A DNA stretch of 29,197 bases from a virus, in the IMG/VR virus record IMGVR_UViG_3300010330_000018, positions 1 to 29,197 of that record, one strand, 5' to 3'. How positions within the stretch are numbered: the stretch's first letter is position 1; the number at the start of each line of letters is the position of its first letter. A program made the position numbers and the translations under genes. Below, piece by piece: positions 4,042 through 21,684 of this stretch. Under the pieces are notes generated by a model. That model was not told the DNA's origin and searched no databases. It saw nothing but the letters and a program-made list of their open reading frames with translations.

Positions 4042-4051
4042 GGGAGAATTG

Positions 4052-5443
4052 ATGCGGACGCTGGAAGATATTTTTCAGGGGGAAGACGAGCAGCAGTTTC
4101 TCCTTGACTGCCGATTTGATTTCGGCAAGTGGGTTACGCGCGTTCTTGGATACGATTACAAATGGTTTCACCGCGAGTGGATAGAGGCGCTTCTTTCAAA
4201 AAAGCGAATCGCTATCCTCGCGCCTACCGGCTTCGGCAAAACCACGATTCTTGGCATAGCATACCCGCTCTGGAACCTCTTTTATAAGAAATACTGGCAG
4301 GGGTTGATTGTCTCTAATTCCATACCGCAGGCCACCAAGATTATTGACAGGCTTAAGATGGCGATGCAGGAGAATGAACTTCTTCAGCGCCTCGTTCCCG
4401 AATATTCAAACCTGACCTGGAGCAAGACCGAAATTGCCACATCCACCAAAGGCAGAATTTTCTGTAAGCCGTATGGCGAGAGCGCGAAAGGTGTCCATGT
4501 TAATTATGTTCTTGGCGACGAGGTGTCCTCATACCGCGACCATTCTATATGGTTCAGGTATATTGTTACGCGGGCAACCGCAAAGCGTGGGGAAGTTGCC
4601 GCAATCTCCACACCGGTTGACGAAAACGACTTGATGATGTCCAAGCTTATGCGTAGCCCGTATTACTGGCACAAAAGCTATCCTGCCATACAGAATAATA
4701 AGTCTATCTGGCCCGAGAGATTCCCGCTTGAATGGCTCAAGCAAGAGGAAGCTGAATTGGGGAAGTCACACTTTGCCCAGCAATATCTCTGTAAGATAAT
4801 TCCCGAATCGGAAGAGATTCCATTCCCAACGCGGCTTCTTGTACAGGCTCACAGTCTCAAATATCAGTTTATGGATAGGCGCCCCGAAGGCGATACCGAT
4901 CCATATTATGTCGGATGCGATTTTGCTATGTCACTCAAAGGCGACTGGTCTGCATTTGTCGTCGGCAAGAAGCGGGATGACAACAAGATTCAAGTTGTCA
5001 AAATATTCAGGTTTCGTGGCATGCTTCCGTCCGCCCAGACCGAAGTCTTGAAGAGCATTAACCGCGATTTCCAGCCCAACAGAATGCTTCTGGACAAGTC
5101 AACTTTCGGCGAGTTCATCGTCAACGATCTCATCTCTGAAGGCATACCCGCAGTCGGCTTCCCGTTCACGCAGGAAAACAGGAACTCCGCATTTGCCAAA
5201 GCTATAACACTTTTAAATGAAGGAAACATAATATTGCCATACAGCAAGGAACCGACATATACATCGCAGATGATTGACCGCCTTGAGCATGAGCTGACGC
5301 ATTTTGTTGTTGACAAGACACCGAGAGGATATGCAACATACAAAAGTTTGGCAGACCACGATGATGTTGCAATCGCGTTCATTCTGATGCTCAAGGCGGC
5401 GGCTGAAGAAAGAAAGTTTATATCCTATATAAGGGCGAGGTAA
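4052..5443 (+). CDS. terL: Terminase large subunit (packaging ATPase and nuclease)
   Basis: Motor that drives DNA into the prohead and cuts it. The ATPase half shows Walker A APTGFGKTT (about residues 57-65) and Walker B YVLGDE (Asp/Glu about 156-157), followed by the coupling-type region ISTPVDEND. The nuclease half has the RNase H-like acidic residues in GCDFAMSLKGDW (about 289-299), LLDKSTFGEF (Asp about 348) and ADHDDVAIAF (about 434-443). At 463 aa it is of normal length. GGGGAGAATTG precedes the ATG at 4052. Base composition is clearly more G+C rich than the portal gene that follows, so the block may have a different history. Its stop directly abuts the next gene. Confidence 0.95.
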   Translation: MRTLEDIFQGEDEQQFLLDCRFDFGKWVTRVLGYDYKWFHREWIEALLSKKRIAILAPTGFGKTTILGIAYPLWNLFYKKYWQGLIVSNSIPQATKIIDRLKMAMQENELLQRLVPEYSNLTWSKTEIATSTKGRIFCKPYGESAKGVHVNYVLGDEVSSYRDHSIWFRYIVTRATAKRGEVAAISTPVDENDLMMSKLMRSPYYWHKSYPAIQNNKSIWPERFPLEWLKQEEAELGKSHFAQQYLCKIIPESEEIPFPTRLLVQAHSLKYQFMDRRPEGDTDPYYVGCDFAMSLKGDWSAFVVGKKRDDNKIQVVKIFRFRGMLPSAQTEVLKSINRDFQPNRMLLDKSTFGEFIVNDLISEGIPAVGFPFTQENRNSAFAKAITLLNEGNIILPYSKEPTYTSQMIDRLEHELTHFVVDKTPRGYATYKSLADHDDVAIAFILMLKAAAEERKFISYIRAR

Positions 5444-5772: not shown

Positions 5773-5810
5773 CTTTATTAATTTGCTTTAACAAATATTA
5801 TTGATTGTAT
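5773..5810 (+). promoter_or_regulatory. TATA box for a near-leaderless portal mRNA
   Basis: CTTTATTAAT at 5773-5782 is centred about 34 bases before the portal ATG (5811). The bases in front of the ATG (ATTATTGATTGTAT) have no GGTG or GGAG ribosome site. This combination fits a very short leader or leaderless archaeal transcript. Confidence 0.5.
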
Positions 5811-7112
5811 ATGACTTTGCTCGATTCTTTTAGGCGTGTCTTTAACCTTTCTTCCAGCAATAAGACTGTCCAAACGCTTGGAATGAAAAGCGTGGGCGAG
5901 ACAACTTTAACATTTAAGAGCGGCGAGGAGCAGCTAAAGCGGGTAAATCCAATTGACTTGGAAACCATTTATATTAGGGAAGGCATGGTCTACAACTGGA
6001 TAAATAAGTTTGTTGAGTCTTTTCTTGCCTGCGATTTTCGTGTTAACACATCAAATGAGCGCGAAAGGAAAATCATGGAAGAGTTTCTGCGTGCTTCCAA
6101 TTTTCGCAACCTTTTGAAAACAACTGTCCAGCATATGCTTGTGTATGGCAATGCTTTCTGGGAAAAAATTACAAACGGCGGAACCAAGCTTCTTGCAGTT
6201 GATTGGATAGATCCCAAGACAATGGATGTTAAGAGAACTCCGATGGGAAAAGTAATTTATGCGCAAGATGGAAAACCTGAAGCTTATGTTCAATATGTCA
6301 AATGGAATGTGGATACATCTAAAATCCCGAAAGAGAGGCAAGTAAATCAAACTGCTATGTTTCCTGAGACGCAGAGCGGGAAAGGCATCCTTCTTAAGAG
6401 GGAAGAAGTTGTTCAGTTTCCGTATAATACAATCGGAGATTCTTGGTGGGGTGTCGGACTTATTGAACCCATCTATAATATTATCAGGGTTAAGCAAAAT
6501 GCGGAAGCCGGATATGCAGAAGCGATTCAGCGTGTAGCGTATCCACGCATCTGGGTTAAAGTTGGAGACGATCAGCATCCTCCGACACCAGAGCAGATTG
6601 ATGATGTGTGGAACCAGCTCAAGGGTTTGGAAACGAAGCATCAGTTTGTTTCTCCATATTTTTATGAGCCAGTTATTCTTGAGTCAAAGCGCGTGGAAAA
6701 GCTGGCTGACAACCTAAAATATTTCTCTGATCAAATTGTTGCCGGGCTTGGAGGTCCTAAACCATTTATAACTGGTTTGGGAACAGACACCAATAAGGCA
6801 ACCTTAAATGACCAGAAAATTCTTTTTGAGAGGCAGCTCAAGGCCTTACAAGAGCAAATTAGCCAAATAATTGAGCGCGAAGTTTTCGCAGTTTTAGCAA
6901 AGCAATATAGATTTCGTTCTGTCCCGACTCTTGTTTGGGAAGAAATATCTACAGAAAGTTTGGATAGCAAAGCAGACAGGCTGGTAAAATATGTGAATGC
7001 TGGTTTACTGAATCCAGACAAAGATATCAGAAATATAATAAGAACTTCTGAGAGATTACCTGAAGAGAGCGGCAACAGTCAGGAGGTTGGGGCAGATGGT
7101 GAATCTAAATAA
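5811..7112 (+). CDS. Portal protein
   Basis: Ring protein at the capsid vertex through which DNA passes and to which neck proteins bind. At 433 aa it has normal length. The core is recognisable: QHMLVYGNAFWEKI (about 105-118), VDWIDPKTMDVKRTPMGKV (about 127-146), VVQFPYNTIGDSWWGVGLIEPIY (about 202-224), then the clip/stem part with GGPKPFITGL and the long helix LKALQEQISQIIEREVFAVL. The C-terminal tail is acidic (GADGESK) and overlaps the next gene. The start at ATG 5811 is preferred over a TTG two codons upstream. It follows terminase, as in most tailed viruses. Confidence 0.9.
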   Translation: MTLLDSFRRVFNLSSSNKTVQTLGMKSVGETTLTFKSGEEQLKRVNPIDLETIYIREGMVYNWINKFVESFLACDFRVNTSNERERKIMEEFLRASNFRNLLKTTVQHMLVYGNAFWEKITNGGTKLLAVDWIDPKTMDVKRTPMGKVIYAQDGKPEAYVQYVKWNVDTSKIPKERQVNQTAMFPETQSGKGILLKREEVVQFPYNTIGDSWWGVGLIEPIYNIIRVKQNAEAGYAEAIQRVAYPRIWVKVGDDQHPPTPEQIDDVWNQLKGLETKHQFVSPYFYEPVILESKRVEKLADNLKYFSDQIVAGLGGPKPFITGLGTDTNKATLNDQKILFERQLKALQEQISQIIEREVFAVLAKQYRFRSVPTLVWEEISTESLDSKADRLVKYVNAGLLNPDKDIRNIIRTSERLPEESGNSQEVGADGESK

Positions 7113-7542
7113 GCTCAAAAAATTGACGCGTGACCTTGATAGCATTACGCAGGACTTTGCACGCGAAATGGAATATGAAGCGCTTTTTCTCGAATCAAAA
7201 GGCAAAACTCCCATATTTAATTTTATGAAACAAATTTTTGACAATGTTAAGTCATGTGTTTTTATTGTCAGCAAAGATTGTAAAATTTTGTATGCCAATC
7301 CTATGAGCATTAAACTGGCTAACAAATTTGGTGGAAAAGCAAAGATTGGTAATTTTTGTATAAGATTTTGGAGTGGAAAGACAAAATGTAAAATGAAAAA
7401 TTGTCCATTAAAAAGGGCTATGAATTCTAAAAGAATGTTAATTGATAAAATAAATTATAGGGGAGATAATTTTGAGATAGTGTCAATTCCATTATATGAT
7501 AATGGAACTACATCTGTATTGGTTATTGCTAACAAGTTGTAG
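7096..7542 (+). CDS. PAS-domain protein with cysteine cluster, 148 aa
   Basis: After a helical N-terminus (about residues 1-38) comes a single PAS fold: FMKQIFDNVKSCVFIVSKDC, KILYANPMSIKLANKF, then GNFCIRFWSGKTKCKMKNCPLKRAM and two final strands NFEIVSIPLYDNG and SVLVIANKL. The insertion with three cysteines before a Pro resembles the Cys-containing loop seen in many archaeal and bacterial sensory PAS domains. There is no kinase or other output domain. AGGAGG at 7081-7086 sets the ATG at 7096, which overlaps the portal 3' end by 17 bases, so the two are translationally linked. A free PAS domain in a head operon is unusual. A redox or metal sensor or a protein-interaction module is possible. 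Confidence 0.75.
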   Translation: MVNLNKLKKLTRDLDSITQDFAREMEYEALFLESKGKTPIFNFMKQIFDNVKSCVFIVSKDCKILYANPMSIKLANKFGGKAKIGNFCIRFWSGKTKCKMKNCPLKRAMNSKRMLIDKINYRGDNFEIVSIPLYDNGTTSVLVIANKL

Positions 7543-7553
7543 AGGTTGGTAGG

Positions 7554-7784
7554 ATGTCTAAGACAGATGAATGGAGACTGAAACAAATGGAATGGCGTGG
7601 CTATACTGTAAAGGCTTTGGAAGATATGAACAATGAATTGAAAGAAATTAAACATGAGTTAAAAGACACGAACAAAAAAATTGACAGATTAAACAATGCG
7701 CTTGGGCGAGTACAGATAAAAGTTGCTGGAATAGGAGCTACTGTGGCCATTCTTGTTTCAATCATACTGCATATTATGTGGTGA
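7554..7784 (+). CDS. Small coiled-coil protein with C-terminal membrane span (XhlA-like)
   Basis: The 76-aa protein has a heptad-like coiled coil (LEDMNNELKEIKHELKDTNK, then KKIDRLNNALGRVQ) followed by one C-terminal membrane span (GIGATVAILVSIILHIM, about 59-75). This architecture matches XhlA/holin-accessory proteins of bacterial phages, so a role at the host membrane (lysis or exit) is possible. Archaeal lysis systems are poorly known, so that role is inference. The gene starts 11 bases after the PAS gene (GGTTGGTAGG upstream) and ends 5 bases before the MBL-fusion start. Confidence 0.65.
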   Translation: MSKTDEWRLKQMEWRGYTVKALEDMNNELKEIKHELKDTNKKIDRLNNALGRVQIKVAGIGATVAILVSIILHIMW

Positions 7785-7789
7785 GAAAA

Positions 7790-9664
7790 ATGAAATTATT
7801 GATGCTGGGAACAGGTCCAACAAATCCTGTTGTGGGGAAGGGAAAGGATAATCGTAGGAATAGCTCGATGCTTCTGACCACAAGGAACGGGACAACTGTG
7901 CTTTTTGACTGCACGCCACAGTTTTATGAGCAAATGCAGACATTTGCGCCGGACACCAATAAAATCGATTATATTGTTTTCAGTCATGGTCATTCTGATG
8001 CGATTGGAGGCATACCTCAGTTAAAATACTGGTTAAAGGAAAAAAAACAAGAGAAAGCTCCGATAGCATATATGCAAAAAGAAACAGAATTTCGCATAAA
8101 AGAGCGGTTTAAGGACTTGTCTCATATGGATATAAGAAATTTCAAGCCGTATGAAATATTGAATCTCGAACACCTTAAGATTGTACCATTTAAGGTTATT
8201 CACGCCGAAGCATTCCCTACTGGAAACAAGTTTCCTACAGTGGGCTTCAGAATCGATAACAAGATAGTTTATGCAGAAGATATGGAATCTGTTCCAGATA
8301 AATCAATACCCTATTTTGAGAAGTCTAAAATTATTATAATAGATGCTGCAATGTGGGATGACAAAAAAATAAGGGGGCATATGAATGTAAAGCAAGCTCT
8401 TGAATTCTGCAAGAAATTCAAAACACGTGAAATTGTTTTGACGCAAGCAGGGCACACATATCCATCATATAATAAAGCGCAGAAAGAGATTGAAAAGATT
8501 TGGTCTGATATTGGCGGCGATAAGCGAACAAGCGTTACCCTTGCTTATGATGGAATGAGTCTTATAATAGCAGACAATTTTGAAAAAGTAAATGACTATC
8601 TGATTCAGATAAAGGAAGGGATTTACCTTGTTAAGCCGCACGCCGAGATGATATGGAAAGGAAACAAGAAGTATATAGTGAAAGCAAAAAAATATATGAA
8701 GATGATTGACAAGCTTCTCTACTTTTGCGACGATGAATATGCTTATGGTATATTGCGTCTCAAAAAGCCTTTTCTCATAAATCTTGATGAATTCAATAAT
8801 TTCAAGCCGCAACACCTTATAAGCAATGAAGAAAGGAAAAAATGGTGGGGCGGGAAGCGCTTTCTGTTTATGTATCCATTTGACATAATCGAGAAGTTCA
8901 AAAAGCCGAAAAAAATAAAGGTTCTGCCCGGGACCCAAACATTCATTAAGGATGTCCAGTTTATGAGTGAGCTTTCTGAAATAGAAATGATAGAAGATGT
9001 TAATCAGTATGATCCATCAAAAGTCAATAGCAAAGCGTTGACCAACGATTGGCGAATAGTCTTAGCTTGGTATGCGACAAAAAAGCGTGGAGGCAACCTG
9101 AAGCATTCTTTCGATACAATCATAGGGCTTGCCAAAAAGATTTACGATGAGATTGTGAAAAGAGTTGAACGGGGCGACATGAAGCATATATTCAAGCCAG
9201 AAAAAATGACTCCATACGCGAAAGAGCTGTACAATAGAGTTAAAAATATGAAAGTTAGTGAAAATAAGGAATACACCGCCTCAATTGACGAATTAACACC
9301 TCTTGTCAGTCAGTTTAAGGAATTTAAAATCATAAAAGATTTTATATCGTTAGTTGGTTCGAATGTAAAACGAGAGGAGGGGCACATACCCAATGACATA
9401 GATTTGCATATTCGTATGCGCACCCCTCCCGATTATATTAGAAGAGCAATCGAAGTTAGGTTGTTAAAAATGCTACCAAATGATATAGCAAATAAAATAC
9501 ATTTTATCTGGGGAGATCCTGAAGGTTCGCATGACTCGTTTGTTCCGTTATATGACCTTGCCTTAGTTAAGTCTGACAGAAAAGTTGTTGAAATGGGAGA
9601 ATTGAAAATCGGGCAAGCTATTGTTATCAATGGTAAAAGAGGTATAATAAAGGAGGTTAAATGA
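7790..9664 (+). CDS. Fusion protein: MBL fold, ASCH/PUA-like, nucleotidyltransferase-like, KOW-like
   Basis: Start at ATG 7790 after GTGGTGAG, giving 624 aa. Residues 1-260 form a metallo-beta-lactamase fold of the PhnP/RNase Z-like type, with FDCTPQFYEQM, FSHGHSDAIGG (His66, His68, Asp70, then Ala), IIIIDA (Asp185), RGHM (His197) and QAGHT (His222). Residues about 275-395 look ASCH/PUA-like (GIYLVKPHAEMIWKGNKKY, YAYGILRLKKP, MYPFDIIEKF, LPGTQTFI). A helical linker (about 415-485) has WYATKKRGGN. Residues about 515-600 hold a GS...DxD pattern (LVGSN, then NDIDLHI and VPLYDLALV), as in polymerase-beta-like nucleotidyltransferases. The end (GQAIVINGKRGIIKEVK) is KOW-like. The stop overlaps the ligase gene start (ATGA). 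Role: probable nucleic-acid end processing; substrate unknown. Confidence 0.75.
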   Translation: MKLLMLGTGPTNPVVGKGKDNRRNSSMLLTTRNGTTVLFDCTPQFYEQMQTFAPDTNKIDYIVFSHGHSDAIGGIPQLKYWLKEKKQEKAPIAYMQKETEFRIKERFKDLSHMDIRNFKPYEILNLEHLKIVPFKVIHAEAFPTGNKFPTVGFRIDNKIVYAEDMESVPDKSIPYFEKSKIIIIDAAMWDDKKIRGHMNVKQALEFCKKFKTREIVLTQAGHTYPSYNKAQKEIEKIWSDIGGDKRTSVTLAYDGMSLIIADNFEKVNDYLIQIKEGIYLVKPHAEMIWKGNKKYIVKAKKYMKMIDKLLYFCDDEYAYGILRLKKPFLINLDEFNNFKPQHLISNEERKKWWGGKRFLFMYPFDIIEKFKKPKKIKVLPGTQTFIKDVQFMSELSEIEMIEDVNQYDPSKVNSKALTNDWRIVLAWYATKKRGGNLKHSFDTIIGLAKKIYDEIVKRVERGDMKHIFKPEKMTPYAKELYNRVKNMKVSENKEYTASIDELTPLVSQFKEFKIIKDFISLVGSNVKREEGHIPNDIDLHIRMRTPPDYIRRAIEVRLLKMLPNDIANKIHFIWGDPEGSHDSFVPLYDLALVKSDRKVVEMGELKIGQAIVINGKRGIIKEVK

Positions 9665-12411
9665 TGTTTCTCAATGAATATGAAAAGAAAAAAAGAGAAA
9701 TATTAGCGCAACTTGATAGTTTAGAAAGTCAGCTTCAGAAAAAAGAGCTGAAGTTGGCAACGCAAGAAACTCTTTGGATAACAGCTATCGAAGATAGGCT
9801 TAAGGCAATAGAAAATAAAATTAAAAGATTAAATGAAATTGAGAAGTATGCTATTGAACCTACTTATGTCATCGAGTTCGAAGATGGCACCACTAAAGAG
9901 CTGACGAAAAAAGAAATCGAAGTGCTTGCCGATACGACATCGCATGATGTTGGTAGCATCCAGCCAATTATTTGGGCTGTGGGAAAAAAAGTGAAAGCCA
10001 AAGGCAAGGTTGGCGTCATAAAAAAGAAAATAAAACAAAAAGGATATATAATACAGTTTGAAGATGGAGAGACAGAAGAAGTTGACGAAAAGGAGTTGGA
10101 AGAGTCTAATATAATCCCTCTAAAGCCTTTTTTACCTTCAGAAAGCAAAGTGTATAATGGTATCGAGAGCATAATAAAAGAGCTAAATCCTAACGAGGCT
10201 AATGTTTATTTTGTTGAGGAAAGACCGAAAGGCATTCGCTTGCTTTTGCATAAGGCTGGAAAAAACATTGAACTGTTTTTATCAAACAAAGAAAATGTGA
10301 CAGATAAATATCCGGATATTGTGAAGCAGGCGCCAAACCTTACTGCAGAAGACATAATCCTTGATGGTGTTCTGGTCGGCAACAAATACAAGGTGTTTGA
10401 CATATTGTATTATAAGAATCAGTCTTTAGATGACATCAGGCTTTATGAGCGCAAAAAAGTTTTGAACTTACTCGAATTTACAGAGAACATAGTTAAGTCT
10501 CCATTTGTTGTTGTCAATTCTTCGGATCAGATGATTAAGGCAGTTAAGCTATTCAGGGCTTTGCCTACCAGTGATGGTGTTCTTATTAGGGGCTATAATT
10601 CAACATATAAGTTAGGTTTTAATCAGTTTTGGTCTGTTTTTAGTCTCGAAGCCCAGCCAAAATTGTTTAAACCATATTTGCCTATGAAGCCACATGGTTC
10701 CGCTTATTATGATTTGAAAGAATGCATAAATGATTTACAGAACGGAAAAAAATATTCATTTGAGTTCAAGTATAATGGATTTCACGCAGTAGCTCATAAG
10801 AAAGGGGAAGAAGTGAAAATATTTTCCGAGCAGAAAAAAGACATTTCTTCGGCATTTCCAACATTAATGGAAAATATCAAAAAGCTTGCGCCTAATCATG
10901 ATTTTATAGTTGATGGGGAAATTGTTCCATACTCTCCTGAAGGAAAAGCTCTTGGTAGAGACCCTTTGATGAAATTTATCGGCGCGGTGAAATCTGGGAA
11001 AAAGCTTGATGATTCATTAATTAAAATGCATGTTTTTGATATTACATATTTTGACAAGCCAATTATAGAAAAACCGTTACATGAAAGGCAGCTTGTTCTG
11101 GATAAGCTCAAGTTCAATGACAGAGTTGAAAGGGTTTTGTATAAAATCGGTACAAAAGAGAATGCAGAAAAATTGATTAACTGGGCTACACGGCAAGATG
11201 GGAGCGAAGGTTGCGTGATAAAGGATTTGGATTCGCCTTATGTATTTGGCGAAAAATCAAAAGCATGGATAAAGTTCAGACATCTGGTTGACATTCATGC
11301 TGTCGTGCTAAAGAAAGTCGAAAAGGAAAGGAATTTATTCAATTACCTTGTTGGAATATATGTTTCTCAGGAGGATGCGAAAAAGCTTCATCCAGATTAC
11401 ATTCAAGATTTTAACGGAAAAAAAGTCTTGGTTCTTGGTCATACATTTAACACAAGTGAAGAAGTTTCTCCTGGAACAATTATAGATGTTGCCTTAGAAG
11501 ATGTGTGGCGCCATACTTATCCTGAAATAAATAAAGTCAGATATTCGATACACAAGCCAAGATTTAGGCAAACAAGACCAGACTTGAAGAAAACATCATC
11601 TATTCAAGACTTGGAAGATATTGTCACCAGCATTGGTGAAGAAGTAATTGTGGAAAAGGAAGAGCTGAAAGAAAAATCTTGGGAAGATGTTCTCAAAAAG
11701 GGCGAAGGCGAAGGTGGAGATTTTGAAACAAGATACGAAGCGGCAGTTAAGTTTTGGGATGCAAACTGGTATAAAAGCTTTCCAAAATCAGGCAAGGGAG
11801 TATTTATTTACCATCATCATTATAGAGGGCTGACTGAAGACGAATCTAAGATGAGTGAAGAGGAGCTTCTTGATACGGATAACTCTGTTCATGGCGATCT
11901 CAGGTGCCAGAAAGACGACAAATCACTATGGGGGTTTACAATTTTTACTGGTAGCACAAAAGATTTGAAAAAAGCAGGTGGCTGTAGGTTGTGTGAGCTT
12001 GAAGGAAACGAAAAGATGCAAGGCACATTCAAGTTGTTAGAGCCGCTTGCGTGGGCAAAAGTTGGATTAAAAAAGCCTTATGTTTCGGAGCCAGAAGGCG
12101 TAGGCGCAACCAAAAATTACTATGCGAAATTTTTCGCAGTTGATCACGGCACCTATGATATGGGAGTTTGGAGAAAGCATAGTTTTGAAATATTTTTACA
12201 TGGGAAAAAACTAAAGGGGCGTTATATAATTCAGTTCGCTCCTGTTGGTGGGCGTCGCGTCTGGCTTATTTCTCATCCGGAAGACCAGACTCCTTATGCA
12301 GATTCGCACAAGCTTGAAGATGTTATCAAAGAATTGAAAGCGAAAAAGCAAGAATGGCTCGTCTGGGCAAAGCCCGGTGTTAAGCCTAAACTAATTCATA
12401 TTGGTGATTAA
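9661..12411 (+). CDS. Multidomain ATP-dependent ligase: pseudo-ligase, ligase and phosphoesterase-like domain
   Basis: A 916-aa protein, AAAGGAGG upstream, coupled to the previous gene by ATGA. Residues 1-60 are coiled coil; about 65-150 hold SH3/KOW-like strands (VIEFEDGTTKEL, IIQFEDGETEEV). Residues about 180-325 follow ligase motif order but are degenerate: EERPKG in place of ExKxDG, then LDGVL, VFDILYY, SDGVLIR, YKLG. Residues about 365-545 form the intact adenylation domain: EFKYNG (Lys370), VDGEI (418-421), VFDITYF, SEGCVIKD (Glu516), KAWIKFRH. An OB-like part follows (about 545-635). Residues about 690-875 resemble the LigD 3'-phosphoesterase: YHHHYRG, NSVHGDLR, LWGFTIF, LKGRYIIQF, WLISHPED. 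Expected reaction: ATP-dependent sealing of nicks or ends in DNA (RNA not excluded). Domain calls are by motif only. Confidence 0.8.
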   Translation: MMFLNEYEKKKREILAQLDSLESQLQKKELKLATQETLWITAIEDRLKAIENKIKRLNEIEKYAIEPTYVIEFEDGTTKELTKKEIEVLADTTSHDVGSIQPIIWAVGKKVKAKGKVGVIKKKIKQKGYIIQFEDGETEEVDEKELEESNIIPLKPFLPSESKVYNGIESIIKELNPNEANVYFVEERPKGIRLLLHKAGKNIELFLSNKENVTDKYPDIVKQAPNLTAEDIILDGVLVGNKYKVFDILYYKNQSLDDIRLYERKKVLNLLEFTENIVKSPFVVVNSSDQMIKAVKLFRALPTSDGVLIRGYNSTYKLGFNQFWSVFSLEAQPKLFKPYLPMKPHGSAYYDLKECINDLQNGKKYSFEFKYNGFHAVAHKKGEEVKIFSEQKKDISSAFPTLMENIKKLAPNHDFIVDGEIVPYSPEGKALGRDPLMKFIGAVKSGKKLDDSLIKMHVFDITYFDKPIIEKPLHERQLVLDKLKFNDRVERVLYKIGTKENAEKLINWATRQDGSEGCVIKDLDSPYVFGEKSKAWIKFRHLVDIHAVVLKKVEKERNLFNYLVGIYVSQEDAKKLHPDYIQDFNGKKVLVLGHTFNTSEEVSPGTIIDVALEDVWRHTYPEINKVRYSIHKPRFRQTRPDLKKTSSIQDLEDIVTSIGEEVIVEKEELKEKSWEDVLKKGEGEGGDFETRYEAAVKFWDANWYKSFPKSGKGVFIYHHHYRGLTEDESKMSEEELLDTDNSVHGDLRCQKDDKSLWGFTIFTGSTKDLKKAGGCRLCELEGNEKMQGTFKLLEPLAWAKVGLKKPYVSEPEGVGATKNYYAKFFAVDHGTYDMGVWRKHSFEIFLHGKKLKGRYIIQFAPVGGRRVWLISHPEDQTPYADSHKLEDVIKELKAKKQEWLVWAKPGVKPKLIHIGD

Positions 12412-12412
12412 T

Positions 12413-12559
12413 TTGGCATATCCGCGCATCTCTATTGAAAAAATTCAGATGATAGTAGAATTGACCAAAAAAGGCGAGAGCAGAAAACAGATAGCGCGCA
12501 TGGTGAAATGCAGTACATCTACTGTATATTCTTACCAGAAAGAATATGGTCTGTTATAG
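12413..12559 (+). CDS. Small helix-turn-helix protein, 48 aa
   Basis: Starts at TTG 12413, right after the ligase stop, with GGTGAT at 12403-12408 as ribosome site; the same layout is seen before the TTG start at 21685. The protein reads (M)AYPRISIEKIQMIVELTK, then SRKQIARMVKCSTSTVYSYQ and KEYGLL: a homeodomain-like or resolvase-type helix-turn-helix with the recognition helix CSTSTVYSYQ. It is just the DNA-binding unit with no effector domain. It may regulate the capsid promoter immediately downstream (12583) or help recognise DNA for packaging. Confidence 0.7.
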   Translation: MAYPRISIEKIQMIVELTKKGESRKQIARMVKCSTSTVYSYQKEYGLL

Positions 12560-12582
12560 TTAACACAACAAATACTTTCTTA

Positions 12583-12618
12583 AAAGTTTATAAATTCGAG
12601 TTTGGTTTAAAACTATCT
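12583..12618 (+). promoter_or_regulatory. TATA box for a leaderless protease/capsid mRNA
   Basis: AAAGTTTATAAATT at 12583-12596 is centred about 29 bases before the ATG at 12619, and no GGTG or GGAG lies between. This is the expected geometry for an archaeal leaderless transcript. It would drive the protease, scaffold and major capsid genes, and so allow late, strong expression. Confidence 0.55.
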
Positions 12619-13758
12619 ATGAAAGAAGACAATTTACAAGAAATTTTTGAGCATCCTGTAGTACAAGAGTTAGTTAATAAAGCATATAAAGACTTGGATT
12701 CAGAGGTTAAGTTGCCATTCATTCTGAAAGACAAAATATTGATGTCTCCTGGCGTGTGGAACAACTTTTACTACAGCCCTAAGACAATTGAAACCATTTT
12801 TAAGAAAACAAACTGGGATGATGTAAAAGTAAGGGCACTTTTTTTAGACCACATTGATGACAGGGCTGCCGAATGGATTGGAGAAGTTATGAACCCAAGA
12901 CTCGAAAATGGTAATATAGTTGGAGACTTGGCAATATTAGACAAGCCGACTGCAATAAAACTGGCGTATGGCGCCAAGTTTGGAATTTCTCCAAAGGTAG
13001 TTGGAGAAGCAGACTATAACAAAAGGATGTATGATGGATACTTCGAAAATTTCTCTGTCGTGATCAATCCCGCTGTTAAGACAACATTTCTTAACAGCGA
13101 AATAAAAATCAAAAATAAAGGAGGAGAGAATATGCCTAAGACAAAGGAAGAAATTTTAGAAGAAGAGTCTTCTAAAGTATCTGAAGAAACACCGAAAAAA
13201 GAAGAAACACCAAAAGAAGAGCCAAAGACAGAAACCAAAGTAACTGAAAATGTCGAAGAACTTGCAGAAAAAATAGCAGAAATACTTGCAAAAAAGAAAT
13301 ACCCATACCCAAAAGCAGATGAAGAGCTGAAGAAAAAGAAATATCCATATCCAGAGAAAATGGAAGAAGAAATCAAAAAGCTCAAAGAAGAAATAGAAGA
13401 ACTCAAAAAGAAGAAATATCCATATCCAGAGAAAATGAGTGAAACTGAGCAAGAGCTTTCAGCTTACACAGATTTTATCAAAGAATATCTCAAGAAGCAT
13501 CCAGGAGCGACAATAAAGGAAGCTGCAAAAGCTTGGGGAAAGGAGCACAACGAGCTTGAGGAATCAAAGTCAAGCGTAACCGTAGAAGACTTGCAGACTC
13601 AGATAGGTGAAATAGTAACACAGAAAATGTCAGAATTTGGCGTAAAGCCAATAAGAATTGCTCAGAAGTTCATAGATCCAAATAGCGAAGCTAATATAAA
13701 TGCTTCAGAACTTGATTTGGCAATGTTCAATATGATTAAGGAGGGGATTGGAGTATGA
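12619..13758 (+). CDS. Prohead protease fused to scaffold
   Basis: Start at ATG 12619 (379 aa) is chosen from the TATA geometry; an upstream frame extension to 12508 overlaps the HTH gene and lacks support. Residues about 30-160 form a serine protease of the herpesvirus/HK97 assemblin type: candidate catalytic His78 in LFLDHIDD and Ser124 in KFGISPKVV, with the final strand FENFSVVINPA. Residues 172-379 form a scaffold: Glu/Lys-rich coil (EETPKKEETPKEEPK), three KYPYP units, helix KKLKEEIEELKKKK, and a C-terminal domain with AYTDFIKEYLKKHPGATIKE and IRIAQKFIDPN. The protease would trim the scaffold and itself during maturation. The stop overlaps the capsid start (ATGA). Confidence 0.85.
   Translation: MKEDNLQEIFEHPVVQELVNKAYKDLDSEVKLPFILKDKILMSPGVWNNFYYSPKTIETIFKKTNWDDVKVRALFLDHIDDRAAEWIGEVMNPRLENGNIVGDLAILDKPTAIKLAYGAKFGISPKVVGEADYNKRMYDGYFENFSVVINPAVKTTFLNSEIKIKNKGGENMPKTKEEILEEESSKVSEETPKKEETPKEEPKTETKVTENVEELAEKIAEILAKKKYPYPKADEELKKKKYPYPEKMEEEIKKLKEEIEELKKKKYPYPEKMSETEQELSAYTDFIKEYLKKHPGATIKEAAKAWGKEHNELEESKSSVTVEDLQTQIGEIVTQKMSEFGVKPIRIAQKFIDPNSEANINASELDLAMFNMIKEGIGV
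13132..13758 (+). CDS. Nested scaffold protein from an in-frame internal start
   Basis: Within the protease gene, AAAGGAGGAGAG at 13117-13128 precedes an in-frame ATG at 13132 with ideal spacing, exactly at the boundary between protease and scaffold (Met172). This would yield a free 208-aa scaffold sharing its C-terminus with the fusion, in the same way as Nu3 within lambda C, or the herpesvirus UL26.5 within UL26. The ribosome site is stronger than that of the full-length gene, which has none. Internal initiation is inferred from the sequence. Confidence 0.6.
   Translation: MPKTKEEILEEESSKVSEETPKKEETPKEEPKTETKVTENVEELAEKIAEILAKKKYPYPKADEELKKKKYPYPEKMEEEIKKLKEEIEELKKKKYPYPEKMSETEQELSAYTDFIKEYLKKHPGATIKEAAKAWGKEHNELEESKSSVTVEDLQTQIGEIVTQKMSEFGVKPIRIAQKFIDPNSEANINASELDLAMFNMIKEGIGV
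13297..13428 (+). repeat. Three KYPYP peptide repeats in the scaffold
   Basis: The pentapeptide KYPYP occurs at residues 227-231, 241-245 and 266-270 of the protease-scaffold protein (DNA 13297-13311, 13339-13353, 13414-13428). Each is preceded by Lys residues and the last two continue as EKM. The flanks are Lys/Glu-rich coiled coil. Confidence 0.8.
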
Positions 13759-14765
13759 GAACTATACAAGAGCTTGCTGATACAACCACTTCTCACAACA
13801 CAGACCTTCTCGCAAAGAGATGGCTAAACACCATAGTAGATTCAGCAAAGAAAAAGATGTTCTTTTTGGACATCGTTAGCCAGTATGATATGCCTCCAGG
13901 CACCCAGAGCATAGTAATACCTTACAGAAAAGGTTACTTTAGCACTCTTGGGACTTCAGTAACAGACACAACCACAGAAGGTAATTCAGTTACATTCACC
14001 ACAATGAACAACCTTGAAGGTCTTACTTTAACACCTTCACCACATGCATATGGTGTAGCAATATCCAACAACGCTGTGAGAACTACAGCAGTTAACCTTA
14101 TACAGGCTGCCAGAGAAGAGCTTACAGACTATTGGGCAGATGTAGTTGACAAGGCAATTGCCGCTGCAATAAATGGAGCTCCAGTTGCAACATCATCGGC
14201 AAAAGGAGCTTCTGAATTGTTTGGTGGAGATGCTTCGTCAACATCTACATTGGAATCTGGAGATATTCTAACACCATCACTTATAGTGAAGGCCAAAAGC
14301 AGACTACAAGGTACAACGATGTATTACTGGGACAGCGGTTCAGAATCAAAATCATCACAGAGTAAGGCACCTTGGTTCTCGGAGCCCGACAGCCCATTTG
14401 TAATGTACATAGGCCCAGAACAGGAATATGTACTTTTGACTGATAGTCAGTTTACGAATGCGGCAGAATATGGTGGCAACGAGATTGTGCTTAACGGCGA
14501 AATAGGAAAATATCAGGGTGTTAAAATAATAACTTCAGTAAATACCACATCAGCAACAAACTGGGGTGGTGGCAGTTTAGCTGGTCACAACTGTTACATG
14601 GTCAAGGCTCGCGTATCTGCAGCTTTAGCATGGGGACAGAGACCAAGATTGAGGATATTTGAGTATCCAAGTGACCTTGAAACCAGAATAATACTTGAAC
14701 AAGCATACGCAACAGACTCTTTGCACAACGACTCGATTTGTCATGTGAAAGTCGCTGACGAGTAA
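13755..14765 (+). CDS. Major capsid protein, HK97 fold (N4-gp56-like)
   Basis: The main shell protein, 336 aa. The N-terminal arm has AKRWLNTIVDSAKKKMFFLD; the core includes TPSPHAYGVAISNNAVR, the long spine helix NLIQAAREELTDYWADVVDK, and the P-domain/A-domain strands YIGPEQEYVLLTDSQF and GKYQGVKIITS. The end SAALAWGQRPRLRIFEYPSD matches the common C-terminal pattern of N4-gp56/P22-like coats. AAGGAGGGG about 10 bases upstream is one of the strongest ribosome sites in the window, which suits an abundant product. The start overlaps the protease stop. It is followed by three hairpins, likely ends of the capsid transcript. Confidence 0.85.
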   Translation: MRTIQELADTTTSHNTDLLAKRWLNTIVDSAKKKMFFLDIVSQYDMPPGTQSIVIPYRKGYFSTLGTSVTDTTTEGNSVTFTTMNNLEGLTLTPSPHAYGVAISNNAVRTTAVNLIQAAREELTDYWADVVDKAIAAAINGAPVATSSAKGASELFGGDASSTSTLESGDILTPSLIVKAKSRLQGTTMYYWDSGSESKSSQSKAPWFSEPDSPFVMYIGPEQEYVLLTDSQFTNAAEYGGNEIVLNGEIGKYQGVKIITSVNTTSATNWGGGSLAGHNCYMVKARVSAALAWGQRPRLRIFEYPSDLETRIILEQAYATDSLHNDSICHVKVADE

Positions 14766-16590: not shown

Positions 16591-19500
16591 ATGGTTAAAT
16601 ACAGAAGAGTTTATTATGATAGCGTTAAGAAATATGGCTTAAAGATTGGCATCACTTCAATTCCTGTTGTTTTTCTTCTTTTTATGCTTCTTGCCCAAAG
16701 AGGAGATATTACTATAACAGGATATTCTGGGGACATGGTCTGTGCAGGGACGGAATTAGATCCCTGCTATGCTTACATTAACTTCACAGCCAACACGGAC
16801 ATTTATATTTATCCCAACGAGAATTGGACATTCAGCACGAACCCGCCAGTGAGGAAAGTTATCCTGCAAAGGAGCTGGCGGGATTCTTGGAGGACAATAA
16901 ACCTGAGCAAGCCGTGGAATAAGAATGTGAAATACGCCATAAAATTTAGCAAAGGAAAAAGCTATCAGATTAGATTTATTGGATACAAATATTATCCTTA
17001 TGATGACATTAAATGGGGATTCGGGGACATAGACCCCGTTTGGTATGGTGATAAATGGATTTCTCCATCATGGTCTAAAGAGATAAAGGAAGTGGTAGAA
17101 TACAACAACGGAACGAGAGCAGTAGTAGATTTTGACAATATTAATTTTGCCGATATAGATAGAGCTGGATTATGGTTAGGAGACGAAAAGAAGAACATAG
17201 CAGGATTTGATAAGTCACACGGGCAGATAATATTGTATCCTAAAGGATATGACAAGCCACCAGTTAATTTGTTTGTCAGGATACATGCGACAAAAGGAGC
17301 AAGCACTTACACTAAATGGCTAACAAGCAACAAAGGAAAACCGTATTGGAACGAGAAGATACTGGATGACGGAGCCACGCAGAAAGAATTAGGATATTAT
17401 ACAAACTTGACATATAACATATTTACGTTCCCCTGTTCTATTGGCATTAGAGGAGACACCCACCACGAGAAATGGAAGATACCGATAAATGTTTCAACAC
17501 CGATAGATTTGGATGATATTTCGGTGGAATATATATTCGCTGTAAATCCAGATTCGGCAAAGAAAATGAAGTATGTGAGAGTAGTCGGGAAAAACGGTAG
17601 CGAGCAATACAGATTAAACAAGCTTATAGACAAATCCGGAGAGATTACACATAATTTTTATTTCTTGGATGAAAATAATAATACGATTTCATTTGTAGAT
17701 TTTGAAAAGGAATTTAACCTTTCAAACTCTCAAGAGTGGAAGATAAAAAGAGTCACGCTCCCAAATGGGCAGTTCGTGTATGTCTTGTCGATTAGATTCA
17801 GCTTCGGAAGTTTGGATATGGACGAAGTGTTAAGTCTCAATGCCGATTGGACGACTCCGAGCAGCGTGGAGAGTTACAGTTCCCAGAGCTCTTTAGATAC
17901 TGCAAGTAAGTCGATAGACGATTCCACTTCGAGTTATTGGGATGAAAATATTGGTAATGATAAAGATGGTCCGACTTACGAGTGGTATATCACATACGAT
18001 ATGGGGGACACCTACACGATTTCGAAGATAAGAATCTATGCAGATGGCGATGAGAGTTATAATCCTTGTAAAGTAGGAATCATAAAAGTCTGTGACGACC
18101 CTGACTGTAATGGAGAATCTAATTTGTTAAGTTCTGCATGTTCATTTTCTACTAAAAAAGAATGGCAGGAATGTTCATTTACGGCTACTTCAGGAAGGTA
18201 TATCGAAGTTCGAGGAGGAATACGTCAGCCGTTTGGTGACTGTGTTAATAAAATTAATTATTTTTATACTCAAGATTTTTACGAGTTCGACGCCTATGTC
18301 GAGAGCGGGGACACATCTCCACCATCATTCTCAAACTGGCAACAGCAACCGCCAGATTTGAACTCAAGTTCTTTGGGAAAGTTATATATAAATGTCACGA
18401 TAACGGACGATTCTGGAGTCAATGAATCTTCCGTAAAATTCTATCATTGGATAAATGATTCACAATATCCAGACCAACCTTGGTGCTTCTTAAATGGAAC
18501 TGCTGGGGATTTCGAACACGAGCATACTATGACCAACACTTCGTCTGTATTCAACATAACTCTGCACACTTACGCATACAACCCGTCAACGCATAATGTC
18601 CACCCAGAAACGATGAGGTCGGCAACGAAATACAATTATAGCTTGGATTCAAATAACAAGGCATTAAAAGTCAGGTTTTACAACATTTCAACTCATCCGA
18701 ATACAACTTTTGTCCTAAAGCCAAGGCTATACAGAAATTCCGGGAATTTGTTGATTTATTATTGTAACAGCTCTTATACGACTGGCAAGGTATACAATTC
18801 TGATTATTGTATCCCTATAGCGACACTAACTTCTCAAGAAGACACAAACTACCAGAATACATATTTCTATGGGGATGAAAATTCTCTTTTAGATGGTATT
18901 AAGATTACATCAACGGGATACATAGTGTTTTATGCGGAGGTAGGTTCGGACTGGGAAGTTGCTTACGCCAACATAGATTCAAACTCGGTTGAAACGACAG
19001 GAAATGGTGGAACATCTTGGACTAATCAAGATTATTCAGCAGATACTTGGTTAATACAACTTAACGGAAATGGGCTAACTACCGTTGGATACAAAGTTTA
19101 CGCTTGCGATAATGTAGGAAACTGCGATAATTCAACAGTCCAAAAGGACACCTATGCCATACATAATTTTGCACCTTCGCCAGCACCAGAAATATTAGTT
19201 CCTGAAAATTCAACTTATTCTGGAATTTTTAACATAACTTGGACAGCGTCAAAAGACCCGAACAGCGACCCATTCAACTACTCAATATACTTATATCATT
19301 CTAATAATACTTTAGCTGCAATATTGGCAGACAACAACATAACCGAAGGAACTGAATATTACACATTCGATTCGACAGGTTATCCAAACGGACAGTATTA
19401 TTTAATGGCAAATGCCACAGATGATGTAGGTAACACGAACTTCTACATTATGCCATATTATTTCACATTAGATAATAACCCACCGTTTTGGTCAGACAAT

Positions 19501-21684
19501 TCCACGAATTCAACATTAGCAGGAAGCCCAATATTACATTCTTTAAAGTGGTATGATAATGATGGTCTAAGCGGTTATATTTTCAGTTTCTACAACGGAA
19601 GCAACACAACTTCTTGCGACGGGACTTTGGACTGCTCTGGACTAAGCTCCGCCCAATGTCAGGCATGTTCTCAATGTTCTTACACGGCAGAAAATTGTAG
19701 CGGAACGCCCAATTCTTGCGATTCATACTCAAGCCAAAGCGACTGCGAACTTTGCGGTTGCACTTGGAGTGGCGGGGGAGGGAGCTATAACACCTATACA
19801 CCAGACGATAATGACTTTGTCTGTACATTAAGAGCATCAGGAGGGGATTACTCTAAAATTAATGATTGGAGAAGTGCAATAGCATGCGATTTAACAGATT
19901 CCAGCACAAAGATATTCACGGTTTCAGATAGAGGTAATTATGATTCAAGTGACGATGGAAAAACGGTTACATTTTCAGGGGGAGGAACAGGAACTTTAAA
20001 ACACATAAGCACATTTAACAAAGCTTTAATCGTAAGTTGTAGTGGAACTATAAATACTGGAACTGTAACTATAAGTTCAGGACATACGTTTACAATTTCA
20101 GATACAGGGCAACAAGTAGGGGATGTTGTTTTAAGTCTTTATAACGATTGGGCAAACGGTTATGATGAAGGCAGTGCTTATATAGACATTAAAAATTTTG
20201 TGACGGATGCTAATCATAAAGTAGTGATATGGACAAACGCAAGTGCGTCTGGGACTCAAGGCCCGAACAGGCATAATGGAACTGCAGAAAGTGGATTTTT
20301 CGTTAATGAAACAGGCAGTAGTTACACTTTTGTTTTTAGAATATCTCATGTTCTTGTAGAAGGAATAGAAATTCAGCAACCTTCAAAACCTTCTATGGGA
20401 GTTTTCTATATGGATAGTGGATTAAATAATACATTTAGGAATTTACTAATACATAATGTCGGGGGAATTGTTTATCATGGGGAAGCTTCAACAATAGAAA
20501 ATTCTATAATCTACGATTTTGGAAGTTCGGGATATTCGGTTGTAAGATTCAATAAAGTTAGAAGTTGTAGCATTTTAGCAATGGGTAGTGGTAGCTATAG
20601 CAATCAAATCATAGTTCGAAATGCAGAATGTTACAATGTTCTTGTCTATAACAATAATTCTGGAACTGGTTATAATGATTATTACTCTTGCACTGGGGAT
20701 TATAATATAGGTTCAGATAGTTCTGCTCCCGGAAGTCATTCACAACACAATAAAGCGTTAAGCGATATAGATTTTGTTTCTACAACACCGGGAAGTGAGG
20801 ATTTGCACATTCAGTCCACTTCGTGTGCAAAAGATGCTGGCACGGATTTGTCGTCTTATTTCACGGATGATATAGATGCGTGCACAAGGTCAGGAACTTG
20901 GGACATAGGAGCGGACGAATATGATTGCACTGGTGGTGGAGGAGGAAGTGGTTCGTGTTCAGGAACTCCAAACTCATGTTCAATAGGAACTTGCGAGGCG
21001 ATATGCGGTTGTACTTATACTCCCGAGTCCTGCTCTAACTTAGGCTCTTGCTCTGCGTGCGGAACAGAAGGGGATTGTAGCGATTGTTCACCGGCAGGGT
21101 GCAGTTGGAGTTCGGTGGAATTTGTGAACGACTCTTGGGTATCAATGTCAGGAACAACGGACTGGTCAAACGTGACTAAAGTTGTGAATTCGACAGTAGG
21201 GGCAACAATAAAGTGGAAAGTATACGCAAATGACAGTAATGATAATTGGAATGTCTCAGATGTTTTTACTTATATAACGACAAGTGGTGGCGCTCCGTCT
21301 GTGACTTTCGATATAAATCATAACACGACCGCTAATATCATTCGTTTTGTTAATTGTTCTCCGGATTGGGCATTTTATCCTACATATCCAGAAAACCAGA
21401 CAACCAATGACGGCATCATAAATGCTACAAATGATGGAACACAAAGCGGGAATTTTGAAATCGAATATGTCGGAACATTGAATACGGGTTGGACACTATG
21501 GGCTTGTAATGCGTCAACCAACGATCCAAAAACCTCTTCTAACTGCGTACAACTTACAAACAGCTGGCAGTTAATCTGGTATAATGTAGCGGTGGATGAA
21601 CAAAAAGACATATGGTTATATGGCAATTGTAGTTATGTGACTGCTAATCCAAGAGTGGGTATAGATATGCAAGCGGTGAGTTAA
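16591..21684 (+). CDS. Giant membrane-anchored or signal-bearing spike/adhesin, 1697 aa
   Basis: The N-terminus has one hydrophobic segment (about 18-36, ITSIPVVFLLFMLLAQ) after a basic stretch, acting as signal or anchor. Domains by eye: beta-rich region (about 40-410); discoidin/F5-8C-like domain (about 415-575; SSYWDENIGNDKDG, WYITYDMGDTYTISKIRIY); Ig/FN3-like domains (about 575-990; ILVPENSTYSGIFNITWTAS); Cys-rich module 1 (about 1008-1065); right-handed beta-helix-like region (about 1067-1446, ending in GTWDIGADE); Cys-rich module 2 (about 1445-1506); C-terminal beta domain. Numerous Asn-x-Ser/Thr sites suggest glycosylation. The ATG follows GGTGAG. Likely binds the host surface or its glycans; a virus-encoded cell-surface protein is the alternative. 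Confidence 0.75.
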   Translation: MVKYRRVYYDSVKKYGLKIGITSIPVVFLLFMLLAQRGDITITGYSGDMVCAGTELDPCYAYINFTANTDIYIYPNENWTFSTNPPVRKVILQRSWRDSWRTINLSKPWNKNVKYAIKFSKGKSYQIRFIGYKYYPYDDIKWGFGDIDPVWYGDKWISPSWSKEIKEVVEYNNGTRAVVDFDNINFADIDRAGLWLGDEKKNIAGFDKSHGQIILYPKGYDKPPVNLFVRIHATKGASTYTKWLTSNKGKPYWNEKILDDGATQKELGYYTNLTYNIFTFPCSIGIRGDTHHEKWKIPINVSTPIDLDDISVEYIFAVNPDSAKKMKYVRVVGKNGSEQYRLNKLIDKSGEITHNFYFLDENNNTISFVDFEKEFNLSNSQEWKIKRVTLPNGQFVYVLSIRFSFGSLDMDEVLSLNADWTTPSSVESYSSQSSLDTASKSIDDSTSSYWDENIGNDKDGPTYEWYITYDMGDTYTISKIRIYADGDESYNPCKVGIIKVCDDPDCNGESNLLSSACSFSTKKEWQECSFTATSGRYIEVRGGIRQPFGDCVNKINYFYTQDFYEFDAYVESGDTSPPSFSNWQQQPPDLNSSSLGKLYINVTITDDSGVNESSVKFYHWINDSQYPDQPWCFLNGTAGDFEHEHTMTNTSSVFNITLHTYAYNPSTHNVHPETMRSATKYNYSLDSNNKALKVRFYNISTHPNTTFVLKPRLYRNSGNLLIYYCNSSYTTGKVYNSDYCIPIATLTSQEDTNYQNTYFYGDENSLLDGIKITSTGYIVFYAEVGSDWEVAYANIDSNSVETTGNGGTSWTNQDYSADTWLIQLNGNGLTTVGYKVYACDNVGNCDNSTVQKDTYAIHNFAPSPAPEILVPENSTYSGIFNITWTASKDPNSDPFNYSIYLYHSNNTLAAILADNNITEGTEYYTFDSTGYPNGQYYLMANATDDVGNTNFYIMPYYFTLDNNPPFWSDNSTNSTLAGSPILHSLKWYDNDGLSGYIFSFYNGSNTTSCDGTLDCSGLSSAQCQACSQCSYTAENCSGTPNSCDSYSSQSDCELCGCTWSGGGGSYNTYTPDDNDFVCTLRASGGDYSKINDWRSAIACDLTDSSTKIFTVSDRGNYDSSDDGKTVTFSGGGTGTLKHISTFNKALIVSCSGTINTGTVTISSGHTFTISDTGQQVGDVVLSLYNDWANGYDEGSAYIDIKNFVTDANHKVVIWTNASASGTQGPNRHNGTAESGFFVNETGSSYTFVFRISHVLVEGIEIQQPSKPSMGVFYMDSGLNNTFRNLLIHNVGGIVYHGEASTIENSIIYDFGSSGYSVVRFNKVRSCSILAMGSGSYSNQIIVRNAECYNVLVYNNNSGTGYNDYYSCTGDYNIGSDSSAPGSHSQHNKALSDIDFVSTTPGSEDLHIQSTSCAKDAGTDLSSYFTDDIDACTRSGTWDIGADEYDCTGGGGGSGSCSGTPNSCSIGTCEAICGCTYTPESCSNLGSCSACGTEGDCSDCSPAGCSWSSVEFVNDSWVSMSGTTDWSNVTKVVNSTVGATIKWKVYANDSNDNWNVSDVFTYITTSGGAPSVTFDINHNTTANIIRFVNCSPDWAFYPTYPENQTTNDGIINATNDGTQSGNFEIEYVGTLNTGWTLWACNASTNDPKTSSNCVQLTNSWQLIWYNVAVDEQKDIWLYGNCSYVTANPRVGIDMQAVS

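Follow-up and report, generated by a model that had tools for sequence, protein, structure and literature searches.

In the phosphoesterase (PE) domain of P. aeruginosa LigD, residues His42, His48, Asp50 and Arg52 are essential or conserved, and His84 and Tyr88 are likewise essential (PMC8656161). Viral end joining has a precedent in the mycobacteriophages that carry Ku (Pitcher 2006, as cited in PMC7719229). Polyvalent proteins of phages have mostly been described in bacteria, and Iyer et al. 2017 report them to be scarce in archaea (PMC5512222); the same article mentions the word ligase three times, the mentions listed being RNA ligases. The virus ANMV-1 (KP703175) encodes an ATP-dependent DNA ligase, AJP62006, that is annotated as a ligase only, the words "ligase" and "portal" being absent from the main text of the ANMV-1 paper. 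The gene pair reported below resembles each of these systems in part. Its domain composition and archaeal setting look undescribed, and no published description of the polyprotein family was found in the open-access subset of the literature.

The window, meaning the whole stretch of DNA that was analysed, is an entire virus record of 29,197 b. Its host is probably an archaeon, judging by ANMV-1 and by the relatives that genome bins of archaea contain (Methanosarcinales, Methanophagales). An earlier note on this DNA had pointed to two genes overlapping by ATGA at 7790-12411, and the pair is indeed found on the plus strand, with ATGA shared between the end of gene 1 and the start of gene 2 and a GGAGG immediately 5' of the gene 2 start codon. 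The gene 1 ORF is listed as 7778-9664 with a GTG start; translation more likely begins at the ATG of 7790, which is where the proteins of L004 and L005 start. The features are as follows.

4049-5443, plus strand: terminase large subunit (TerL), context gene (PHROG phrog_38, 1e-46)
5805-7112, plus strand: portal protein, context gene (Pfam Phage_portal, 1.5e-16; PHROG, 4e-30)
7790-9664, plus strand: gene 1, MBL-ASCH-helical-nucleotidyltransferase protein, 624 aa (ORF; start backed by the L004 and L005 homologues)
7790-8569, plus strand: MBL fold, PhnP/RNase Z-like (Pfam PF12706, Lactamase_B_2, 9e-25; PDB 6b9v profile match; motifs)
8615-8920, plus strand: ASCH (PUA-like) domain (AF2 model, pLDDT 86; Foldseek)
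9029-9244, plus strand: helical segment, no assigned role (sequence, AF2 model)
9281-9607, plus strand: putative nucleotidyltransferase (NTase) domain, MNT/pol-beta-like, GS...DID...D kept (motifs, weak matches)
9661-12411, plus strand: gene 2, SH3-like, pseudoligase, ligase and PE protein, 916 aa (ORF)
9661-9840, plus strand: N-terminal coiled-coil-like segment (sequence)
9844-10125, plus strand: SH3/Tudor/KOW-like segments (Pfam PTM_DIR17_Tudor, 7e-5, and Tudor_3, 1.8e-4, both below cut-off)
10105-10641, plus strand: degenerate adenylation domain of a ligase, without the motif I K (hmmsearch LIG 149-244 and 240-327; alignment)
10669-11625, plus strand: intact ATP-dependent DNA ligase, adenylation and OB-like part (Pfam, PDB matches, motifs)
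11749-12408, plus strand: LigD-type 3'-phosphoesterase (AF2, Foldseek, profile match, residues; Mn triad H-H-D and Arg kept)
12508-13758, plus strand: capsid protease/scaffold-like protein, context gene (position and conserved family before the MCP in relatives)
13755-14765, plus strand: major capsid protein (MCP), context gene (PHROG, 4e-13)

The head operon runs in the order TerL, portal, two small ORFs, gene pair, protease/scaffold-like gene and MCP; from the portal onward, adjacent genes overlap or are spaced by anything between a few bases and about 100. The protease label goes by position and conserved family rather than by a database match; the PHROG match of 12508-13758 is weak. The two small ORFs are unusual for a head operon: that at 7087-7542 has a weak PAS-like Pfam match (7.8e-4, below cut-off), and that at 7554-7784 is a coiled coil with a hydrophobic C-terminus. 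Farther downstream, the 1697-aa product of 16591-21684 is probably a tail or fibre protein; it shows a weak match of the F5/F8 carbohydrate-binding type. The gene pair is under purifying selection (dN about 0.17-0.21 in same-gene comparisons; synonymous sites are saturated, hence no dN/dS), and this, together with the recurrence of the domain set in dozens of contigs, argues that the set is not due to chance.

The N-terminal MBL fold of gene 1, proposed earlier, is upheld by Pfam, and a 12-member MBL profile matches PDB entries 6b9v (6e-28), RNase Z (4.5e-18), PhnP (8.5e-12) and Apyc1 (3.7e-10). The first metal site, GH(M)N and the bridging Asp are kept. The metal motif HxHxDH is not: it reads HxHxD[A/C] across the window clade (HxHxDA in the window), with loss of the site-2 His, and is intact in the more distant members L017, L091 and L093. 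Since the metal site is altered throughout the window clade, the PhnP-like end cleaning that had been ascribed to this domain is doubtful and is set aside. The ASCH/PUA-like domain called behind it is borne out by Foldseek matches of its model to 2dp9 (3.6e-6), the Z. mobilis ASCH (ZmASCH) and the TRIP4 ASCH, and relative L012 gives a direct Pfam ASCH match (2.9e-4). To note, small stand-alone ASCH proteins of archaeal genomes (L074-L084, L088-L090) match the viral ASCH profile, to 2e-12, and are a possible source of the viral domain. Counterparts of the helical segment in L011 and L009 show short Pyr_excise-like matches (6.6e-5 and 5e-3); as these are just short matches in two relatives, a Pyr_excise glycosylase is not claimed for the helical part. 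At the C-terminus, the pattern G-S...D-x-D...D, read earlier as a nucleotidyltransferase, is retained in nearly all of the 24 rows of relatives. The fold is backed by weak matches: MNT structures occur weakly among the Foldseek matches, the Pfam NTP_transf_2 cut-off is reached in one relative (L009), and the ASCH+NTase profile found no match in the PDB. Motif and weak matches together point to a nucleotidyltransferase fold.

Gene 2 opens with its coiled-coil-like segment, and the NTase-ligase (LIG)-PE gene of L007 has a similar heptad-rich N-terminus. The KOW/SH3-like modules suggested to follow find Tudor-type matches (7e-5 to 2e-4), which are weak and below the Pfam cut-offs. The proposal of one degenerate and one intact ligase domain is confirmed, DNA_ligase_A_M matching gene 2 at 2.8e-42 in three stretches. 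By alignment, the first copy corresponds to the one ligase, an intact one, that L005 has, with EERPKG at motif I, where the lysine is lost, versus EEKFDG in L005, and with later motifs lost as well (DGE to DGV, SEG to SDG). The second copy matches DNA ligases of the PDB, to 3.9e-17, and retains K, E, F-x-D, SEG and KFR, with RPDLK close to its end. Its motif I is KYNG in place of KxDG; since KxNG also stands in L003 and L007-L015 of this clade (but KFDG in L005), it is a trait of the lineage, not an accident.

The PE corresponds to the C-terminal 220 residues of the gene 2 protein and was modelled with a pLDDT of 95, the ANMV-1 sequence being left out of the alignments used for the AF2 models. 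Its LigD-like character is supported in several ways: all 7 Foldseek matches at E<=0.001 are LigD phosphoesterase structures; the PE profile matches the archaeal PE 3p43 at 6e-6; Pfam LigD_N is found in 7 of the 21 PE members (best 1e-5); the residues aligned to His42, His48, Asp50 and Arg52 are identical in 20/20 members of the family. A BFVD search with the domain returned one significant match, an 827-aa protein. The LigD PE-like call holds for the fold and the metal triad, while the positions aligned to His84 and Tyr88 (3p43 alignment) are E/Q and Trp, so that the chemistry may differ. The search for signs that the assigned folds are unrelated to their namesakes failed to dislodge the MBL, the ASCH or the PE.

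About 55 loci came from scanning viral contigs, and one genome per species, at the protein and alignment level; absence and gene order are judged on contigs that include fragments and on the available flanks. With iterated local HMMs, the same slot and domain set are found across contigs, down to 18-30% identity, and both recur in other archaeal viruses, as conservation of the gene pair would have it. The order portal-[MBL-ASCH-NTase-LIG-PE]-protease-MCP occurs in L005, L007-L010, L012, L013 and L015 (L010 stops before its MCP, and L013 is without detected MBL), and L011 has the same slot order with the set carried as two differently divided genes. The set forms a single ORF in L005, L008, L009, L012, L015 and, without detected MBL, L013, the single chains measuring 1096-1606 aa; in L010 an MBL fragment precedes one ORF with most of the set, and the window, L007 and L011 split the set in different ways. 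The two coupled fusion proteins of the earlier note are real as a pair, but on this comparison the true unit is one polyprotein, of which the window carries a split form.

The portal is immediately upstream also in ANMV-1, L018, L019, L041 and L049-L052. ANMV-1 has a shorter version, with NTase-LIG-PE directly after the portal gene; the latter (L002:1913-3193), annotated as "MutT-like phage hydrolase", is a portal (Pfam Phage_portal_3, 3e-22). Further members, of up to 1880 aa, come from genome bins of archaea (Methanosarcinales, Methanophagales, and the phyla of two bins); their domain order is shuffled, so that the domains need not all belong to the same pathway. The marine-type group (L020-L042) possesses a shorter ligase-PE protein; in L025, the portal is two sizeable ORFs upstream, and protease and MCP are directly downstream. 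A ligase of this type, used as a query, found no match in the phage collection. Among the matches listed from that collection, the NTase-LIG-PE core is shared by ANMV-1 only, the others having a ligase domain, an XkdF domain or an MBL alone. In L004 (4454-9459), an MBL-ASCH-NTase gene has no ligase or PE behind it within the available stretch and is followed by a 123-aa ORF, then by fibre-like proteins. In L005 (8004-12824), a LAGLIDADG-type intein (C...HN/S) lies inside the PE domain, at about residues 1135-1482 of the 1606-aa protein.

Around a constant LIG-PE-NTase core, relatives carry other domains: a uracil-DNA glycosylase (UDG) in L016 and L040, a D12 adenine-DNA methyltransferase in L007, L010, L012 and L040, and a NUDIX domain in L040. 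The L040 polyprotein (6059-11880) reads NUDIX-NTase-LIG-UDG-PE-D12 methyltransferase, and the protein after it matches DNA methyltransferase and head maturation protease families. The partners UDG and D12, both DNA enzymes, suggest that DNA is the substrate. They bear directly on the RNA-repair alternative that had been left standing, in which the pair would heal 3' ends and seal RNA. A PE can act on 3'-ribonucleotides, the ASCH has a PUA-like fold with the Z. mobilis ASCH among its matches, and L012 gives a weak RNA_ligase match (3e-5); DNA_ligase_A_M is far stronger in the same L012 protein (2.7e-28). Because DNA enzymes join the relatives' proteins, and the scanned proteins hold no 5'-kinase and no RNA-ligase-first domain, RNA repair is most improbable, and it is rejected as the main reading on account of the DNA ligase family and these DNA-directed partners.

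The D12 methyltransferase also invites a reading as counter-defence, in which a virion-delivered polyvalent protein would mend host-nuclease cuts with its ligase and PE and mask sites by methylation, the MBL, ASCH and nucleotidyltransferase being aimed at host signalling nucleotides or RNA. Bacterial-phage polyvalent proteins are interpreted so in PMC5512222, and the MBL profile also matches Apyc1, an anti-Pycsar enzyme. This MBL nonetheless resembles Apyc1 less closely than it does PhnP/RNase Z-type structures, with an altered metal site in the window, and it is the defence-like domains that vary among relatives where the core does not; counter-defence is accordingly considered rather improbable.

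Concerning the link to the virion, the repair modules are co-inherited with the portal, as far as pairwise distances tell: the correlation with the portal is 0.89 for NTase, 0.81 for LIG and 0.67 for PE (permutation p <= 0.0002), which is close to the 0.92 of portal-MCP and above the 0.39 (p 0.07) of TerL-LIG. Moreover, in two genomes (L052/L085 and L069/L094) the portal continues at its C-terminus into an ASCH domain, and an XkdF capsid-protease (peptidase) domain is found C-terminally in L016, L018 and L041. These fusions, the best available evidence of a virion link, suggest that one exists, and with the conserved slot they sustain the tie to head and packaging genes drawn earlier. Many large phages encode ligases (PMC7824862), and an ordinary replication or recombination ligase might sit in the late operon by chance, with no virion link; the strict slot, the co-inheritance and the fusions to portal and capsid protease make this a slim prospect.

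The same neighbourhood is compatible with packaging-coupled quality control. The protein would then stay on the portal side of the procapsid and would not be ejected; by mending nicks, gaps and blocked ends it would keep the terminase motor from stalling. The slot adjoining the portal and the portal-ASCH fusions agree with this, as do base-repair domains such as the UDG of relatives, and the fused protease domains could trim the protein. Nothing separates it from action after ejection, however, and the Ku of some relatives is a better fit to a complete linear genome having its ends joined. Quality control is viewed as unlikely, if worth keeping in mind.

Ku was identified in the virus records of two relatives, G007 (the L005 virus; 2.5e-24) and G806 (the L014 virus; 3.6e-16), in clusters at L102 668-6613 and L104 6189-9950, respectively. 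RNase HII is a neighbour of Ku in both: in G007 along with a small ligase of its own and an uncharacterised protein, in G806 along with an AAA-like protein related to the one in G007 (2e-13). In G806, 43.9 kb scanned end to end, the head-operon LIG-PE is the sole ligase found, with portal and MBL-ASCH-NTase at the opposite contig end. No Ku was found in the 29-kb window, in 10 marine-type records or in the other relatives' records tested, many of them fragments. The G007 virus also has a DpdA-like gene (L103:6602-7387; 9.8e-24), which points to 7-deazaguanine DNA modification. Because two relatives carry Ku, the notion of a compact LigD analogue is strengthened; where Ku is present, the two would be a viral end-joining set.

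The reading preferred here, held with a little better than even confidence, is that the two genes are halves of a virus-specific polyvalent protein, produced together with the head, that seals and heals ends or nicks of viral DNA. The end-healing and sealing role first proposed for DNA is supported to that extent. A more specific version is possible, though doubtful: a head-borne LigD-like polyprotein, with a viral Ku in some cases, would join or repair the genome ends of an archaeal virus as the DNA comes in, without relying on the host. The polyprotein would be located at the portal or in the head, and its SH3-like and ASCH modules would help to hold DNA. The PE domain would take off 3'-phosphates or 3'-ribonucleotides, the nucleotidyltransferase would add or transfer a nucleotide, and the second ligase domain would seal, the first, dead one serving perhaps as a DNA clamp or scaffold. 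The target would be the linear genome at cell entry, its ends being joined and its nicks and base damage repaired, assisted by the viral Ku where present; the nearest variant places this action during packaging. Several observations count against the preferred reading: neither the window nor the majority of relatives' records has Ku, and that of G007 lies beside its own ligase; the PE has His84 and Tyr88 replaced, the ligase has KxNG, MBL site 2 is damaged, and in L004 the first gene has no ligase behind it within the available stretch.

Archaeal-type tailed viruses would here use a portal-adjacent slot to repair DNA ends. Presence of the protein in the virion would show that a virus can bring its own strand-break repair enzymes along with its genome. 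The ways in which genomes of archaeal viruses become circular or withstand damage could then be tested directly, and biochemistry would gain a new LigD-type phosphoesterase lineage with altered active sites as well as KxNG ligases.

Compared with LigD, the viral pair likewise joins a ligase and a 3'-phosphoesterase, with the PE fold and the Mn-binding triad, and Ku is co-encoded in two relatives. It differs by an MNT/pol-beta-like NTase instead of the archaeo-eukaryotic primase (POL) domain (AEP primase-polymerase gave no Pfam match in the pair or scanned relatives), by additional MBL, ASCH and SH3-like parts, by the two replaced PE residues and by its place in a head operon. Lacking the POL domain and these residues, the pair is, as judged from its domains, not LigD proper. 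With polyvalent proteins, as described in PMC5512222 and PMC9503650, it shares many enzymatic domains per polypeptide, within the range of 2 to 15, and, as in PMC5512222, a terminase-portal virus with the gene beside or fused to virion genes; unlike those described there, the family has a repair ligase and PE as its constant core. General Pfam scans of the pair and scanned relatives, made without targeted profiles for all of these, gave no ArdC-N, MPTase, LPDs or MuF. T4 Pnkp/Rnl-type RNA repair differs, the viral ligase being of the DNA_ligase_A_M family and without a kinase domain, and PhnP/RNase Z-type MBL hydrolases differ by the HxHxDH that the window clade has lost. The ANMV-1 ligase AJP62006 has the same NTase-LIG-PE core right behind the portal gene, but a single intact KFDG ligase and no detected MBL or ASCH. 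Finally, the Ku of mycobacteriophages Omega and Corndog resembles this system in that NHEJ is put to viral use for a linear genome; whereas these phages rely on the host LigD, the window family encodes its own LigD-like end-processing and ligase protein.
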